From positions 1 through 42,302 of the forward strand of contig CACZAR010000021.1 in the NCBI GenBank assembly GCA_902779135.1: DNA of 42,302 nt, in the 5' to 3' direction. How positions within the stretch are numbered: position 1 is the first letter of the stretch; every line of letters begins with the position of its first letter. Made by a program: the position numbers and the translations under genes. Source of the stretch: an uncultured Coriobacteriaceae bacterium. Its GTDB lineage: Bacteria; Actinomycetota; Coriobacteriia; Coriobacteriales; Eggerthellaceae. Under the pieces are notes generated by a model, which was not told the origin of the DNA, made no database searches, and saw nothing but the letters and a program-made list of their open reading frames with translations. This document shows positions 31,744-37,937 of this stretch, one piece after another.

Positions 31744-32505
31744 TTAATGCAGCAGGATAGCTGCAACCATGAGCGCAATGACAAGTACGAGGGCGATGAT
31801 GTCGTGCGCTGCGAACGGGTATTGCTTATAGCCTGATTCGCGGGTACGCAGGTTGAAGCCGCGCACTTCGGCTGCGATGGCAGCGCTGTTCGTCTTGCGC
31901 ACCGAGCTGACCAGCAAGGGCACGCAAAGCGGCACCATCAACTGGATCTTGTTCACGATGCCGCCCTGGTCGAATTCGACACCGCGCGCAGTTTGCGCCT
32001 CCATGATGCCCTTCATGTCATTCATGAACACGGGGATGAAATGTACGGTCGAAGCGAACGTGAACGCATATTTATAGGGCACGTGCAGCACTTTCACAAC
32101 AGAGTTCGACAGATCAGACATCTTTGTCACGTAAAACGTGAGGAACAGGGGGATGGCTGCGGCTTCCAGACGCAGGATGGTGGTGATGGCCGCCATGATC
32201 GAGCCGGTTCCGATATAGCCCCACGGCAAGTCGACGAGACGGTCGCCTGTTGGCGTGGTGAAGATGAGCAGGATTGCCAGGATGAGCGAGAACACGAACA
32301 CGGCCTTCATGAGGCCGAGCGTCTGGCGCATCATCCCGCAGCTGGCTGCGAGGGCAAGTGCGAACACGAACATCGCCGCCAGGAAGATGGGGTTGCTCGT
32401 GCAGAAGCACATGATGGCGAACAGGACGGCGAACAACAGCTTTGCAACTGGGTTCATGCGGTGGAGCAGTGATGTTCCAGGTACGTATTCGAGGAAACCG
32501 TTCAT
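31744..32505 (-). CDS. ecfT: ECF transporter transmembrane component (T)
   Basis: EcfT is the scaffold membrane subunit that links the two ATPases to the substrate-binding S component. The 253 residues have five or so membrane segments and the N-terminal PGTSLLHRMNPVAKLL typical of the CbiQ/EcfT family. The cytosolic coupling helices appear as AQTARGVEFDQGG and AIAAEVRGFNLR (the Ala-Arg-Gly motifs). AAGGAG precedes the ATG, which overlaps the stop of the upstream ATPase gene by four bases (ATGA). It is the last gene of the tryptophan-type ECF operon. Confidence 0.93.
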   Translation of the reverse strand: MNGFLEYVPGTSLLHRMNPVAKLLFAVLFAIMCFCTSNPIFLAAMFVFALALAASCGMMRQTLGLMKAVFVFSLILAILLIFTTPTGDRLVDLPWGYIGTGSIMAAITTILRLEAAAIPLFLTFYVTKMSDLSNSVVKVLHVPYKYAFTFASTVHFIPVFMNDMKGIMEAQTARGVEFDQGGIVNKIQLMVPLCVPLLVSSVRKTNSAAIAAEVRGFNLRTRESGYKQYPFAAHDIIALVLVIALMVAAILLH

Positions 32506-33241
32506 CGGTCAACTCCTTCAAACGGAACAGCGAGTGTGTTCGGCTCAATGGCAGCGCGCATCTCGGCGAGTGTGTTGGCGCGTGCTACTGCGGAGTCGGC
32601 CAACGTGGGGCTCATGAGCTGCAGAGCGAGCGAGATGTCGACAATTTGGGGTGGCACGAGGTCGGCGGCTTCGAGGGTGTGGCGGTTGCGCAGTATCTCG
32701 AACGTCGACCCCTGGTCGACGACCAGACCATCGCTCATGACGATAATTCGTTCGGCGAAGTCGGCGACGACCTCCATGTCATGGCAGACCATGATGACGG
32801 TCGTGCCATTCTCGTGCAGCCGGCGAATGATGCTCATGACCTTCACGCACTCGCGGAAGTCGAGACCAGTCGTGGGTTCGTGATGCTGTCGACGCGTCGG
32901 GCGGCATCGTCCATGTCCATCTTCAATGCGCGGAAGCCGAACAGCAGCTCCTCGCGCACCGTGTTGCAGCAGATCTGACTATCGGGATTTTGGAACAGGA
33001 ATCCGACGCGGCGGGCCAACTCGCTCGTTTTCAGCTGCGTTGTGGGGACGCCGTCGACGAGCACCTCGCCCTCGTCGGGTTTCAGTAACCCGTTCACCAG
33101 GCGCATGGTTGTGGACTTGCCGGCTCCGTTCGTGCCGACGAATGCCACGAACTCGCCGTCGTTCACGGTAAAATCGACACCGCGCAAGATAGGCGTGTTC
33201 GCATCGTACGAAGCGTGGACGTTGCGGAACTCGATGGTCAT
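32502..33241 (-). pseudogene. ecfA2: Second ECF ATPase, internally deleted and frame-shifted
   Basis: The upper part (33241 to about 32880) encodes a normal start, Walker A (GTNGAGKSTTMRL) and Q-loop (FLFQNPDSQICCNTVREE), then breaks after ARRVDSI and stops. In the other frame, EPTTGLDFRECVKVMSII and the H-loop (VIMVCHDME) continue to 32502. About 40 residues, including the LSGGQ signature and most of Walker B, are missing between the two, with a change of frame near 32880. As written no active ATPase can form. Both neighbours overlap it by ATGA, so the intact gene was translationally coupled. This is a real loss or an assembly error; see the findings. Confidence 0.85.
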
Positions 33242-34140
33242 GCGATCGCCCCACTTTCGGTCGAAGTTCGTTCAACGAAACCGGCGAAGGGGGCAGGGGA
33301 GCCGCCGAGGATTTCCAGAAGCGCGTTGCAGGCTTCCTCGACGTTGCGGCATACGGGGCCTGTGTACAGGCCGTCTGCTGAAAGACGGTTCATGAGCGTT
33401 GTCGAGCGAGGGCAGTTCACGCCAATCTCGAGCAGCTCGTCCGAATGGGCCAACACATTGGACGGCGTGTCGCAGAAGCGGATCGTTCCGTGGTCGACGA
33501 TGACGAGCATGTCGGCGAACTGGGACAGCAGGGCGATTTTCTGCTCGACGACCACGACGGTGGTGCCGTGCTCGCGTGCGTAGCGGGCAAGCAGCTGGAA
33601 CACTTGCAGTGAACTGGCGGGGTCGAGCTCGGCTGTGGGCTCGTCGAGCATGAGCACCTTCGGCTTCAATGCCAAGATGGACGCGATGGCCACCTTCTGC
33701 TTCTGGCCGCCCGAAAGGCTGGCTATGACGCGGTCGCGAAGGTCGGCGATGCCCATATCGGTTAACGCCTCTTCGACGCGTGCGTCAATTTCTTCGTGCG
33801 GTATGTCGAAGTTTTCCAGACCGTACAGCATCTCGTCTTCGACGATGGATGTGACGATCTGCGAGTCGATGTCTTGGCATACGCTTCCGACGATTTGCGA
33901 AACATCGGTGAGACTCGTCTCGCACGTATCGTGGCCGTCTATCGTAACCGAGCCGTAGAAGTCGCCTGGATAGCAGTGCGGGATGATGCCGTTCATGGCA
34001 TACGTGAGCGTCGACTTTCCGCTTCCTGCTGCTCCTGTGATACCAACGAATGCACCGGCCGGAATGCTCAAGTTGATGTCCTTGACCACCGGTTCGGTGC
34101 TCTCGCGGTACGTGAACGTGAAGTTCTTGATTTCGATCAT
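33238..34140 (-). CDS. ecfA1: First ECF transporter ATP-binding subunit
   Basis: This 300-residue ABC ATPase powers uptake with EcfT and the S component. Walker A is GAAGSGKSTLTY, the Q-loop is VGSVCQDIDSQIVTS, the signature is SLSGGQKQKVAIASIL and Walker B is VLMLDEPTAELD, with VVVEQKIALL in the H-loop region, where a Gln replaces the usual His (V-V-E-Q, as in many EcfA subunits whose H-switch is degenerate). It is intact. GAGGAG lies before the ATG, the stop overlaps the next ATPase by four bases, and a hairpin separates it from the S gene. Confidence 0.92.
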   Translation of the reverse strand: MIEIKNFTFTYRESTEPVVKDINLSIPAGAFVGITGAAGSGKSTLTYAMNGIIPHCYPGDFYGSVTIDGHDTCETSLTDVSQIVGSVCQDIDSQIVTSIVEDEMLYGLENFDIPHEEIDARVEEALTDMGIADLRDRVIASLSGGQKQKVAIASILALKPKVLMLDEPTAELDPASSLQVFQLLARYAREHGTTVVVVEQKIALLSQFADMLVIVDHGTIRFCDTPSNVLAHSDELLEIGVNCPRSTTLMNRLSADGLYTGPVCRNVEEACNALLEILGGSPAPFAGFVERTSTESGAIA

Positions 34141-34233: not shown

Positions 34234-34803
34234 CTACTTCTTGAGGACTTTACGCAGGAGCGGGGTGAGGATTTGCACCAGGATGGCGTTGAACGTTGCG
34301 GTGCCGAACACCATGATGGCGTATGTGACGAAGATGACGGGCAATGCCAGGCCGTTCATGAGGCCTACGATGATGGCGAACGTGTAGCCTGATACGACCG
34401 TCGAGAGGAACGTGGTCACGAACGGATTGATGTCAGCCTTGCCGCTAATCTTCAGCGGGATGTTGATGAGCAGGCCGCACGCCAGGGCGCCGAGCACCTC
34501 GGAAGGAATGTTCACAAGCGGTGTGGCGTTGAGCATCGGGATCTGGCACATGATTCCGGCGATGAGGCCGATGACGATTGCCTGCGGCAGTTTCGGTCGC
34601 GTCAGGATGATAGCCAGGCAGTACATGGCGATGACGAAATTCGGTTTCATGCCAGCGAAGGAAAGGAAGCTGGCGACGGTCAGCTTCAGCACGGCGCCGG
34701 CGGCGAGCAGCACGGCGATGAGGATAAGGTCTTGTGTGTTGAGGCCTTTCTTAGCTTCGGCGTTTTCGACGATCGTGCGCTTCATGGTGGTGGACTCGGA
34801 CAT
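34234..34803 (-). CDS. ECF transporter S component, probably tryptophan-specific (TrpP-like)
   Basis: The 189-residue membrane protein has five to six hydrophobic segments and the segment GMKPNFVIAMYCLAIIL, similar to the tryptophan transporter TrpP of Bacillus. It should bind the substrate and dock on the EcfA/EcfT module encoded immediately downstream. The tryptophan assignment comes mainly from the T-box riboswitch in front of it, whose specifier is UGG. AAGGAAG precedes the ATG at 34803. A hairpin separates it from ecfA1. Confidence 0.82.
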   Translation of the reverse strand: MSESTTMKRTIVENAEAKKGLNTQDLILIAVLLAAGAVLKLTVASFLSFAGMKPNFVIAMYCLAIILTRPKLPQAIVIGLIAGIMCQIPMLNATPLVNIPSEVLGALACGLLINIPLKISGKADINPFVTTFLSTVVSGYTFAIIVGLMNGLALPVIFVTYAIMVFGTATFNAILVQILTPLLRKVLKK

Positions 34804-34920
34804 CTTTCTTCCTTTCTGTCGTGGCCGGCTGCCCCTTGCAGCCTGGCCGGTTGGCTGTCCGATGAGGTGGGCGCCTTACCCGCCTCATCCACTCGAATCA
34901 CTCGAAGTCGTCGCGCAAAT

Positions 34921-35220
34921 CAAAAGGCCTGTCCTTTGCAACCCCTTGCGGAGTTTCAAAGGACAGGCCATTCAACCTGCGGTGCCACCTTTGCTTGGCC
35001 CCATGCGGGACCCACTCGTGAACGTGCCATCACACGCTCTGCCTCTAACGCGGGCTCACGGTCCAGATACTCAGCCTCGGCTTGCGCTTTGGCCTTTCCC
35101 CTTTCCCTCGGCGATCCATTTGCCACCTAGCGTACTACGGAACTCTCAGCAACGTCCGCTCTCTGTGAGTGCCCGGATGACTTTACTTTCGCCTCAACGG
35201 TTTCGAGCTATTCGATTGTT
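34921..35220 (-). promoter_or_regulatory. T-box riboswitch, predicted tRNA-Trp specific
   Basis: On the minus strand the leader has Stem I closed by CGGGC(AC)TCAC with GTGAGCCCG (35165-35175 with 35051-35059). TGG lies in the specifier position at 35063-35065, within ATCTGGACC. The conserved T-box AAGGTGGCACCGC is at 34979-34991. It is followed by a terminator of 13 paired bases (34926-34938 with 34957-34969) ending in TTTTG. CAAAGG upstream of the T-box can instead pair with CCTTTG to form the antiterminator. The bulge reads UGGC and so would pair with a GCCA acceptor end, that is, discriminator G73, which bacterial tRNA-Trp carries. Uncharged tRNA-Trp should turn the operon on. Confidence 0.9.
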
Positions 35221-35226
35221 GAGGGC

Positions 35227-35256
35227 ACTTTAGCGCAGCAAAGCAAAATGTGTCAA
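35227..35256 (-). promoter_or_regulatory. Promoter of the T-box / ECF operon
   Basis: TTGACA (35251-35256), an 18-base spacer and TAAAGT (35227-35232) lie on the minus strand just upstream of the T-box leader, giving a start near 35220. Confidence 0.75.
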
Positions 35257-35330
35257 GAGCTTTTTGCGACTTTTTTCACTTACGATAAACGCCTGGTGGC
35301 AGTGCATTTCTTATAGATTAGATAGAATGA

Positions 35331-35357
35331 ATTGTTATCGAAAATATCGATAACAAT
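35331..35357. promoter_or_regulatory. 27-base palindromic operator candidate upstream of metQ
   Basis: ATTGTTATCGA and its exact complement flank AAATA (35331-35341, 35347-35357). A TAGAAT -10-like hexamer lies just before it (35323-35328), so a bound repressor would block initiation of metQNI. I do not know the regulator, and no S-box or other SAM riboswitch is seen in 35257-35469. A small hairpin GGCCG-CGAAGA-CGGCC (about 35438-35453) lies before the ribosome binding site. Confidence 0.6.
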
Positions 35358-35469
35358 CGAACGAAAAAGCATATTACCGCAGGTCTTGCGCCAATTAATA
35401 GCATCCAGGTATCGTATCGCCTAACGGTTTTAAAGGGCCGCGAAGACGGCCTGAGGGGAAGGAGACCAC

Positions 35470-36348
35470 ATGTCAGCAATTAAGAAGAACAGGAAACTGG
35501 CAGCGATTGTCGTTGCCGCGCTCGGTGTCGTGTTGGCGTTCGGCCTGGCATCGTGCGGAGGGTCAGCAAGCTCCAGCGCGTCGAGCGCGAGCGGGTCGGC
35601 CAGTGCTTCAGCCAGCGCTTCGGCCGCATCCGACGACAAGGTCATCAAGGTGGCCGCAAGCCCGACTCCGCATGCGGTGATTTTGAACGACGCCGTAGCG
35701 CCGCTGGTCGAGAAGGCCGGTTACAAGCTCGAGGTAGTCGAGTTCACCGATTACGTGCTGCCCAACACTGCAACTGAAGATGGCGAAGTTGACGCCAACT
35801 ACTTCCAGCACATTCCCTACCTTGATCAGTTCAACAAGGAGAATGGTACGCATCTCGTGAACGTTGCGGGCGTGCACATCGAGCCGATGAGCGTCTACGC
35901 TGGCAAGACCGCTTCGTTCGACGAGCTCGCTGACGGCGCTACGGTTGCCGTGCCCAACGACACCACCAACGAGGCGCGCGCCCTCCTGCTGCTGCAGACC
36001 GCTGGCCTCATCGAGCTGGAAGATCCGACCAACTTGGCTGCAACTCCCAAGGACATCAAGAGCAATCCGAAGAACCTGCAGTTCAAAGAGGTTGAAGCTG
36101 CCACCGTTCCGACCATCCTGCCCGATGTCGACATCGCTGTGATCAACACGAACTATGCAATCGGCGCCAACCTGTCGAAGGACCTGGTTCTTATTACCGA
36201 AGCCGCCGAATCCCCGTATGTCAACGTGTTGGTCGTGAAAGAGGGCAACGAGAACACCGACAAGACCAAGGTCCTCATCGACGCTATCACCTCGCAGGAT
36301 GTGAAAGATTACATCGCCAAGAACTTTGATGATTGCGTCGCAGTGTAA
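35470..36348 (+). CDS. metQ: Methionine-binding lipoprotein MetQ
   Basis: This 292-residue NlpA/MetQ-family lipoprotein captures methionine outside the cell for the MetNI transporter. The signal ends in the lipobox LASC (Cys near residue 29), followed by a Ser/Ala linker (30-55). The binding domain contains VAASPTPHAVIL, DGEVDANYFQHIPYLDQF, VPNDTTNEARALLLLQTAGLI and AVINTNYAIGANL, all characteristic of the family. AAGGAG precedes the ATG. A palindromic operator candidate precedes the gene, and it is followed by a hairpin and a dispersed palindrome before metN. Confidence 0.95.
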   Translation: MSAIKKNRKLAAIVVAALGVVLAFGLASCGGSASSSASSASGSASASASASAASDDKVIKVAASPTPHAVILNDAVAPLVEKAGYKLEVVEFTDYVLPNTATEDGEVDANYFQHIPYLDQFNKENGTHLVNVAGVHIEPMSVYAGKTASFDELADGATVAVPNDTTNEARALLLLQTAGLIELEDPTNLAATPKDIKSNPKNLQFKEVEAATVPTILPDVDIAVINTNYAIGANLSKDLVLITEAAESPYVNVLVVKEGNENTDKTKVLIDAITSQDVKDYIAKNFDDCVAV

Positions 36349-36403
36349 ATCCCTGAGTAAATCCCTTACAATAGGGAGCCGCTAACAAAACGGGACAACG
36401 AAT

Positions 36404-36427
36404 GCGGGGCCGATTCGTCGGCCCCGC
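36404..36427 (+). terminator. GC-rich hairpin after metQ
   Basis: GCGGGGCCGA (36404-36413) pairs perfectly with TCGGCCCCGC (36418-36427) around TTCG, a stable tetraloop. No T-run follows, so it is more likely an attenuator or mRNA 3' stabiliser that makes metQ more abundant than metNI. Confidence 0.55.
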
Positions 36428-36443
36428 GTGTTGCGGTCTACGG

Positions 36444-36472
36444 ATGCGACAGGCACTTGGTGCCTGTCGCAT
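36444..36472. repeat. 29-base perfect palindrome with TTG loop
   Basis: Arms of 13 bases (36444-36456 and 36460-36472, ATGCGACAGGCAC and its complement) flank TTG. The design (AC-TTG-GT core with perfect arms) is the same as at 1588-1620, though the outer arm sequences differ. It lies between the metQ hairpin and the metN ribosome binding site. Confidence 0.75.
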
Positions 36473-36499
36473 TGCGCGAAAGGCGAACGGAAGAGTTTC

Positions 36500-37282
36500 A
36501 TGATAGAACTGATAGACGTGGGAAAGGTTTACCACGCCAGCGCCGGCGACCACCGTGCGCTCGAGGGTGTGAATCTGCGCATCGAAGATGGCGACATCTT
36601 CGGTATCATCGGCGAATCGGGTGCGGGCAAGTCAACGCTCGTGCGTTTGCTCAACTTGCTCGAACGTCCGACCGAGGGTCGTATCATCATCGACGGGTCC
36701 GACATCACCGACTACCAAGGCCGCGAGTTGCGCGAGTTGCGCGCCAATATCGGAATGATCTTCCAGAACTTCGCCTTGTTCCAACAGCGCACGGTGCTGC
36801 AAAATGTCACGTTCCCTCTCGAGGTGCGTGGCGGGAAGAAGGAGGCCAACGCCAAACGAGCACATGAGCTCCTGCGCCTCGTGAGCCTCGACGACAAAGC
36901 ATCGCGTTATCCCAGCGAGTTGTCGGGCGGCCAGCAGCAGCGCGTTGCCATTGCGCGCGCACTTGCCAACGAGCCTCATTACATGCTCTGCGATGAGGCT
37001 ACGAGCGCGCTCGATTCGCGTACGACCGTACAGGTGCTCGACCTGCTAGCTCACATCAACGCCGAGCTGGGCGTGACCATGGTCGTCATCACGCACTCGC
37101 TCGACGTTGCGAAGCGTGTCTGCAACCGCATTGCCGTCATCGATGAGGGTCATATCGTGGAAGAGGGCAAGACGGCCGACGTGTTCGCCAACCCCCAGAG
37201 CGACGTAACGCGCGAATTGCTTGATTGGGGCTACAAACGTACCGATACGCCCGATGGAAAAGAGGAGGTCGTCCGTGATTGA
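36500..37282 (+). CDS. metN: Methionine ABC transporter ATP-binding protein
   Basis: The 260 residues include Walker A GESGAGKSTLVR, Q-loop MIFQNFALF, signature ELSGGQQQRVAIARAL, Walker B MLCDEATSALD and H-loop VVITHSLDV. It energises methionine import with MetI. Most MetN proteins are about 340 residues with a C-terminal NIL/ACT-like domain that gives inhibition by internal methionine; this one ends shortly after the ABC domain and lacks it. The ATG at 36500 follows GGAAGAG. An earlier in-frame start at 36428 would translate through the palindrome and is rejected. The stop overlaps metI by eight bases. Confidence 0.94.
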   Translation: MIELIDVGKVYHASAGDHRALEGVNLRIEDGDIFGIIGESGAGKSTLVRLLNLLERPTEGRIIIDGSDITDYQGRELRELRANIGMIFQNFALFQQRTVLQNVTFPLEVRGGKKEANAKRAHELLRLVSLDDKASRYPSELSGGQQQRVAIARALANEPHYMLCDEATSALDSRTTVQVLDLLAHINAELGVTMVVITHSLDVAKRVCNRIAVIDEGHIVEEGKTADVFANPQSDVTRELLDWGYKRTDTPDGKEEVVRD

Positions 37283-37937
37283 GTTCTTTGACAAGTACGG
37301 CGCCCTGCTCGCGCAGGGAACCATCGATACGCTGGTCATGTCCATTGCTTCGTGCGTCTTCGCATACGTCATCGGTCTTCCACTTGGAATTTGGTTTGCC
37401 GTCACCACCCCGAACGGCCTGCGTCCCAACAAGGCCGTAAACACGGTGCTCGGCTGGATCATCAACATCGGCCGTTCAATCCCGTTCATCATTCTGCTTG
37501 TGGCCATCATCCCGTTCACGCGACTGGTTGTCGGCACGTCGCTCGGCGTGCCGGGCGCAGTGGTGCCGTTGACTGTTGCGGCCGCTCCTTTCGTGGCGCG
37601 CATCGTCGAGCAGAGCTTGGCCGAGGTCGACAAAGACCTCATCGAAGCAGCTCATAGCTTCGGTGCGAGCAATATGCAGATCATCATGAAGGTGATGTTG
37701 AAAGAATCGCTTCCCTCGCTTGTGCGCGGCGTGGCGATTACGTTCGTGAACCTGTTCGGATACTCTGCCATGGCGGGTACGGTAGGCGCTGGCGGCTTGG
37801 GTGACATCGCCATCCGCTACGGCTACCAGCGCTTCCAGGGCGACGTCATGCTTGCGGCCGTCATCCTCTGCGTCGTGCTCGTGCAAGTGTTCCAGACCTT
37901 CGGCGATTGGCTTGCCCGGACCATCGATAAACGTTAG
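37275..37937 (+). CDS. metI: Methionine ABC transporter permease
   Basis: The 220-residue permease has about five to six membrane segments and the EAA coupling loop EAAHSFGASNMQIIMKVMLKE. SAMAGTVGAGGLGDIAIRYGYQRF is the typical MetI C-terminal signature. The GTG at 37275 is chosen because AGAGGAGG lies six bases upstream, inside the end of metN; the two genes overlap by eight bases and are translationally coupled. Its length matches the family. Confidence 0.95.
   Translation: MIEFFDKYGALLAQGTIDTLVMSIASCVFAYVIGLPLGIWFAVTTPNGLRPNKAVNTVLGWIINIGRSIPFIILLVAIIPFTRLVVGTSLGVPGAVVPLTVAAAPFVARIVEQSLAEVDKDLIEAAHSFGASNMQIIMKVMLKESLPSLVRGVAITFVNLFGYSAMAGTVGAGGLGDIAIRYGYQRFQGDVMLAAVILCVVLVQVFQTFGDWLARTIDKR

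Follow-up and report, generated by a model that had tools for sequence, protein, structure and literature searches.

The leader ahead of an ECF transporter operon in an uncultured Coriobacteriaceae bacterium (Eggerthellaceae) is almost certainly a tryptophan T-box regulating that operon, and we consider the account as a whole, in which a tRNA-Trp-responsive T-box controls an ECF importer most likely dedicated to tryptophan, to be a probable one. The feature examined lies at positions 34234-35256 on the minus strand of a 42,302-nt window (the whole stretch of DNA analysed), and the ECF operon extends to 31744; the source genome is a 2.17 Mb draft of 83% completeness in 202 contigs. The order on that strand is promoter-like site (35256-35227), T-box leader (from 35203 to about 34922), ECF genes (34803-31744).

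The leader is predicted to act as a class I transcription-antitermination T-box that senses the charging of tRNA-Trp. When charged tRNA-Trp is absent, UGG in Stem I would be recognized by the anticodon CCA, and the UGGC bulge by the free GCCA end; binding of the uncharged tRNA-Trp would allow the antiterminator to form, and the four genes of a dedicated ECF importer (S, A1, A2 and T) would be transcribed. With charged tRNA-Trp, the terminator would form instead. The importer would most likely carry tryptophan by means of a TrpP-family S component, in bacteria mostly lacking tryptophan synthase. Sequence analysis showed the switch elements and their conservation, a matching tRNA-Trp, the operon and the predicted S-component fold, all described below; the mode of action, that of other T-boxes, and the cargo are inferred.

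The T-box leader and its specificity

The search with the Rfam T-box model (RF00230), suggested as a check in an earlier note on this DNA, gave a match at 34956-35206 of the minus strand covering the complete model (1-219); it scored 70.3 bits, with E 4e-15 when a slice of 751 bases was searched. When the whole 2.17 Mb draft genome was searched, it was the sole match at E <= 0.001 (E 2.7e-15). The score is under the Rfam gathering score of 93, which is a database threshold and not a structural feature, and for this reason the default Rfam scan of the 42,302-nt window reported no RNA family above cut-off. At 71.5 bits, a related genome's MetRS T-box likewise falls under the gathering score. Among 14 control genomes, the model found matches in five, above cut-off in two, and a scan of related loci (L047-L083) at the gathering score returned one unrelated TPP riboswitch only.

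Conservation of the structure was examined in alignment A2, composed of this leader and 15 named relatives. Over 46 pairs, 99.2% of cells can pair, and changes on both sides were found in 15 pairs (47 cells). The means of 500 shuffles, a statistic that ignores the relatedness of the sequences, were 92.3% paired, 6.7 both-side-changed pairs and 12.1 cells, and none of the shuffles reached any of the observed values. In the helix above the specifier loop, four of the six pairs show both-side changes. The ten pairs of the antiterminator are kept in all 16 sequences with none varying, so that this element offers no evidence from covariation; the terminator, with 97.6% of cells paired, shows little covariation. 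The antiterminator (34992-34958) and the terminator (34969-34926) overlap in bases and are mutually exclusive. The features are listed in Table 1.

Table 1. Features of the T-box leader and the ECF operon in the window
Feature	Position	Strand	Basis
Promoter-like TTGACA-18-TAAAGT	35227..35256	-	Consensus scan, 10/12; 1 found against 0.4 expected from shuffles
T-box Stem I with specifier loop	35106..35200	-	Rfam alignment; 21 pairs, both-side changes in 6 (16 sequences)
Specifier UGG, Trp codon	35116..35118	-	Rfam alignment; aligned in relatives
T-box bulge UGGC, complementary to the tRNA-Trp end GCCA	34984..34987	-	Sequence; tRNA-Trp G73
Antiterminator AAAGG-UGGCACC-GCAGG / CCUGU-CCUUU	34958..34992	-	10 pairs, 16/16 sequences, invariant
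Intrinsic terminator hairpin with U run, overlapping antiterminator	34922..34969	-	13 pairs, 97.6% of cells paired (16 sequences); part of minimum-energy fold
ECF S component, 189 aa, TrpP-like	34234..34803	-	Predicted fold; orthologues match PF17099 TrpP
ECF ATPase A1	33238..34140	-	PF00005 100.9 bits; ECF_ATPase_1 E 1.8e-67, below equivalog cut-off
ECF ATPase A2, frame disrupted at about 32881 by loss of 115 bp	32502..33241	-	Comparison with relatives
ECF T component	31744..32505	-	PF02361 CbiQ 94.3 bits

On the other side of the promoter, genes of a MetQ/MetN/MetI-type ABC transporter (35470-37937) are aligned divergently from the ECF operon. An inverted repeat of 12 pairs with a 5-base loop (35330-35358), possibly an operator, lies between the MetQ-type gene of this group and the T-box promoter.

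The UGG specifier proposed in the earlier note was placed at 35118-35116 both by the Rfam alignment and by counting bases from the lower helix of Stem I (GGCGA/UCGCC), and the covariance alignment puts no other codon in the specifier loop. The UGGC bulge was also found as described (34987-34984). The reading depended on a G discriminator in tRNA-Trp, and the single tRNA-Trp seen in the source genome (locus L025; anticodon CCA) ends in CCT-G-CCA, that is, G73 followed by an encoded CCA. The accompanying argument, that UGGC points to G73 and hence to tRNA-Trp, holds only in part. UGGC does fit the G73 of tRNA-Trp, but in the source genome, where discriminator bases were read in the 30 of 44 tRNA matches that were given loci, G73 is also carried by Arg, Asn, Asp and Gln tRNAs, while A73 is carried by those for Met, Ile, Lys, Phe and Tyr. 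In addition, six of 25 ECF leaders carry UGGU as the bulge, as do the trpB, trpE, TrpB-like and iorA leaders that were read. UGGU was considered as a sign of another amino acid and rejected, as the trpB and trpE leaders carry it too and tRNA-Trp has G73 in all 20 genomes with an ARAGORN find, UGGU genomes included (25 genomes were searched and 21 gave a match; none was obtained in G004, G013, G014 and G023, and only partial genes in G025). According to the TBDB description, 46% of Trp T-boxes carry U with a G73 tRNA (PMC7778990). UGGC thus fits tryptophan well while the bulge alone is not decisive, and the argument is weakened without weakening the conclusion.

A purine is usual after the specifier of T-boxes, and in 73 Eggerthellaceae leaders the base following UGG is A in 31, U in 25 and G in 17. 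The sequence AUGG is invariant in the specifier loop of alignments A2 and A3. Moving the specifier back by one base gives AUG, which would make the leader a methionine T-box and the transporter methionine-related; a purine, G, then invariably follows the specifier, and MetQ-type genes adjoin the operon. We rejected this reading as very improbable: the A73 of tRNA-Met would mispair with UGGC, kept in all 73 leaders, and Trp-Trp-Trp leader peptides (see below) are found at four loci without a T-box. The true MetRS T-box of a relative (G005) has a different loop (GAAC-AUG-G) and a different base, and a Trp-like leader in the same genome (L199) reads GUGG, indicating that AUG is not needed.

Probable tryptophan control of the S gene in related genomes

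In a survey of 119 Eggerthellaceae genomes, the S protein was detected in 79, and the 78 loci besides the present one were fetched (L254-L331). A T-box core was found within 900 bases upstream of S at 73 of these 78 loci, each with UGGC in the bulge and UGG in the loop. Four of the five loci without a T-box have, instead, a short reading frame containing a run of three Trp codons, followed by a terminator; the encoded peptides include AWWWNKPE, AWWWHKSR, AWWWSKPE or SWWWRNAE (G083, G041, G111, G072; loci L267, L268, L269, L302). When the same scan was applied to 2346 other stretches of the loci, 14 (0.6%) had such frames, as did four of 1560 shuffles. Segments of three of the leaders fold as terminators, and alternative antiterminators form in two truncated segments, CGGAUCA/UGAUCCG (G083) and CGGAUUA/UAAUCCG (G041). 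Since G083, G041 and G111 belong to one genus, the four leaders represent about two independent cases. At the fifth locus (L306, G076), neither a T-box nor a Trp leader was found in the 406 bases upstream of S, unlike its genus mates. No such frame was detected among the 27 clostridial and treponemal loci that lacked a T-box by pattern; at one of them (L056), the Rfam model does recognize a T-box.

Leaders of the same type, with the same UGG loop and the same AAACC...GAGGG base as the ECF leaders, precede trpB (643 bits), trpE and TrpX in related genomes, the identities of the trpE and TrpX genes both being under the cut-off of their models. Together with the Trp-Trp-Trp leaders at the same gene, these leaders give strong support to the earlier note's assignment of a tryptophan T-box to the ECF operon. 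Judged by its sequence, the S locus is probably under tryptophan control in the relatives also, sometimes through a quite different RNA switch. One S gene with a T-box at 73 loci and a putative Trp-Trp-Trp attenuator at four would make a clean case of the replacement of one RNA switch by another.

The ECF transporter and its cargo

The S protein is predicted to be an ECF S component with the six-helix S fold. An AlphaFold model from 42 sequences (pLDDT 83) gave ECF S components as the best PDB matches, PanT (Z 16.4) followed by FolT, ThiT, RibU and others, and the best 18 rows of the VIA structure list were all ECF proteins; Foldseek E-values were weak (best 0.047), with a probability of 1.00 for the top three. 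The TrpP profile (PF17099) did not detect the S protein of this locus itself. Of 26 genomes, 17 gave a match above its cut-off, including one from Eggerthellaceae (34 bits), and the match coincided with the ECF S gene wherever positions were compared; four S orthologues scanned singly gave 34 to 63 bits; the plasmid collection contained no TrpP match. The TrpP-like GMKP motif noted earlier is present, but 14 of the 42 S proteins aligned have T in place of its K, and the invariant part is PNFVIAMYC. All 42 also have E102 and a basic residue (K or R) at position 40, which might fit the needs of a carrier of a zwitterion.

We lean towards tryptophan as the cargo. B. subtilis TrpP is a tryptophan importer as judged from resistance to 5-fluorotryptophan (PMC13170310), and the literature counts it among the ECF S proteins (PMC11487621). 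No trpB match was found in 65 of the 79 genomes with S; trpB is present in 14/79 genomes with S against 16/40 without it (Fisher p 0.013, a value that ignores relatedness and genome completeness). A T-box, however, tells what is sensed and not what is carried, and so the confident substrate prediction of the earlier note was too strong: tryptophan is likely from the TrpP orthologues, but the iorAB-paaK partners described below and the failure of TrpP to detect the protein's own sequence speak for caution. The points against the favoured account are these two, the linkage being needless for a plain tryptophan importer, together with the sub-cut-off T-box score, the non-purine after UGG in 25 of 73 leaders, and a broken A2 gene with no intact copy found.

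The state of the A2 ATPase gene raises the possibility that the operon is decaying here, with an intact switch and a nonfunctional transporter unless another ECF module lends its ATPases. We regard this as unlikely, and it is compatible with the other readings. At about 32881, 115 bases present in five compared relatives are absent, shifting the frame and removing the signature motif and the Walker B region, and no intact copy of A2 was found elsewhere in the draft genome. Of the dedicated (group I) operon, A1 and T are present and A2 is broken in the assembly. The deletion is known from the draft assembly alone, however, the remaining genes are open, and A2 is in one frame in 75 of 76 relatives with a match, the remaining one being cut by a contig end.

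In some relatives, the ECF genes are accompanied by iorAB and paaK. Within the fetched flanks, iorA was found in 20 of 52 named relatives, among which the 15 Eggerthellaceae gave none. In downstream DNA of seven clostridial genomes, all with a T-box before S, iorA and then paaK follow the ECF genes in 7/7 (iorB was read in six; in G011 the pieces are on different contigs). The ECF genes are flanked by paaK and iorAB in two Treponema loci (L053, L054), and one Eggerthellaceae genome (G031, L330) has the order iorB, T-box leader, S, A1, A2, T, paaK. In two clostridial genomes (G004 and G005; L167, L168), iorA has its own Trp-type T-box and the ECF operon is located elsewhere, the identity of the gene being checked for G004. 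The ligase has AMP-binding domains (PF00501/PF14535) of the AMP-forming type and is nearest to PaaK, under the cut-off of that model. An AMP-forming ligase favours activation of the substrate; the same argument was made for Bacteroides, where such a ligase beside IOR was taken to indicate synthesis rather than breakdown (PMC13285125, 2026). In a Geobacter genome paper, iorAB-paaK appears in the tryptophan category, together with a conserved 5' element (PMC2700814).

These arrangements raise another reading, in which the same Trp-sensing switch would control uptake of an arylacetate precursor, for instance indole-3-acetate (or indolepyruvate). A PaaK-type ligase would form indoleacetyl-CoA, IorAB would convert it to indolepyruvate by reductive carboxylation, and an aminotransferase would yield tryptophan. 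In the source genome, iorA, iorB and paaK are indeed together on another contig (C2), but no T-box was detected there; the T-box was detected on the ECF operon only. Moreover, the S family matches TrpP and has an invariant acidic residue. As iorA is found in 108 and paaK in 106 of the 119 Eggerthellaceae genomes, with or without S, their co-occurrence with S is uninformative, and one genome with S (G055, 98% complete) gave no paaK match at E <= 1e-100. An arylacetate is thus an unlikely though serious candidate for the cargo. The more specific proposal that ECF, PaaK and IorAB form a tryptophan-starvation module in Bacillota, Spirochaetota and Actinomycetota, which would import the indole-3-acetate of neighbours and build tryptophan from it by reductive carboxylation, is slightly more doubtful still. 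Tryptophan is reportedly formed from indole-3-acetate in the rumen, an old observation for which such a module, if true, would supply the genetic basis, together with a sink for a gut signalling molecule.

With tryptophan as the preferred cargo, the operon offers a testable route of tryptophan acquisition for Eggerthellaceae, most S-carrying genomes examined being without a trpB match. The link to IorAB and PaaK allows the salvage of indole-3-acetate to tryptophan in anaerobes to be tested genetically, and bears on indole signalling in the gut.

Comparison with known systems

Among the papers listed by searches of the open-licence PMC literature, none described a T-box-regulated ECF tryptophan importer. 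The leader shares with class I Trp T-boxes (RF00230; before trpB, trpE and trpX) the Stem I with its specifier loop, the UGG codon, a UGGN bulge, the alternative of antiterminator and terminator, and the cognate tRNA-Trp. Unlike those Trp T-boxes, it controls a complete ECF operon and scores under the Rfam cut-off, and its bulge is UGGC, whereas the trpB, trpE and iorA leaders examined have UGGU. The T-box-regulated TrpX ABC transporter, reported for example from Streptococcus suis (PMC9382623), is a tryptophan uptake system under a Trp T-box, as the ECF importer would probably be, but it uses a separate substrate-binding protein in place of the membrane S component of ECF transporters. In the Geobacter locus, too, the iorAB-paaK enzymes are assigned to tryptophan and a conserved 5' element is present; as far as the relevant parts of that paper go, the element is not called a T-box and ECF genes are not mentioned (PMC2700814).

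Ribosome-mediated attenuators of the trpL type consist of a run of Trp codons, a terminator and an alternative antiterminator. The four Eggerthellaceae leaders are predicted to share these elements, located before an ECF transporter and not before a trp operon. B. subtilis TrpP (YhaG, PF17099) shares with the present system the predicted S-component fold, the profile match of the orthologues and the control by tryptophan. In contrast to B. subtilis TrpP, the S component described here has its own A1, A2 and T genes, is controlled by a T-box or a leader peptide and not by TRAP, and has at this locus a protein below detection by the profile.
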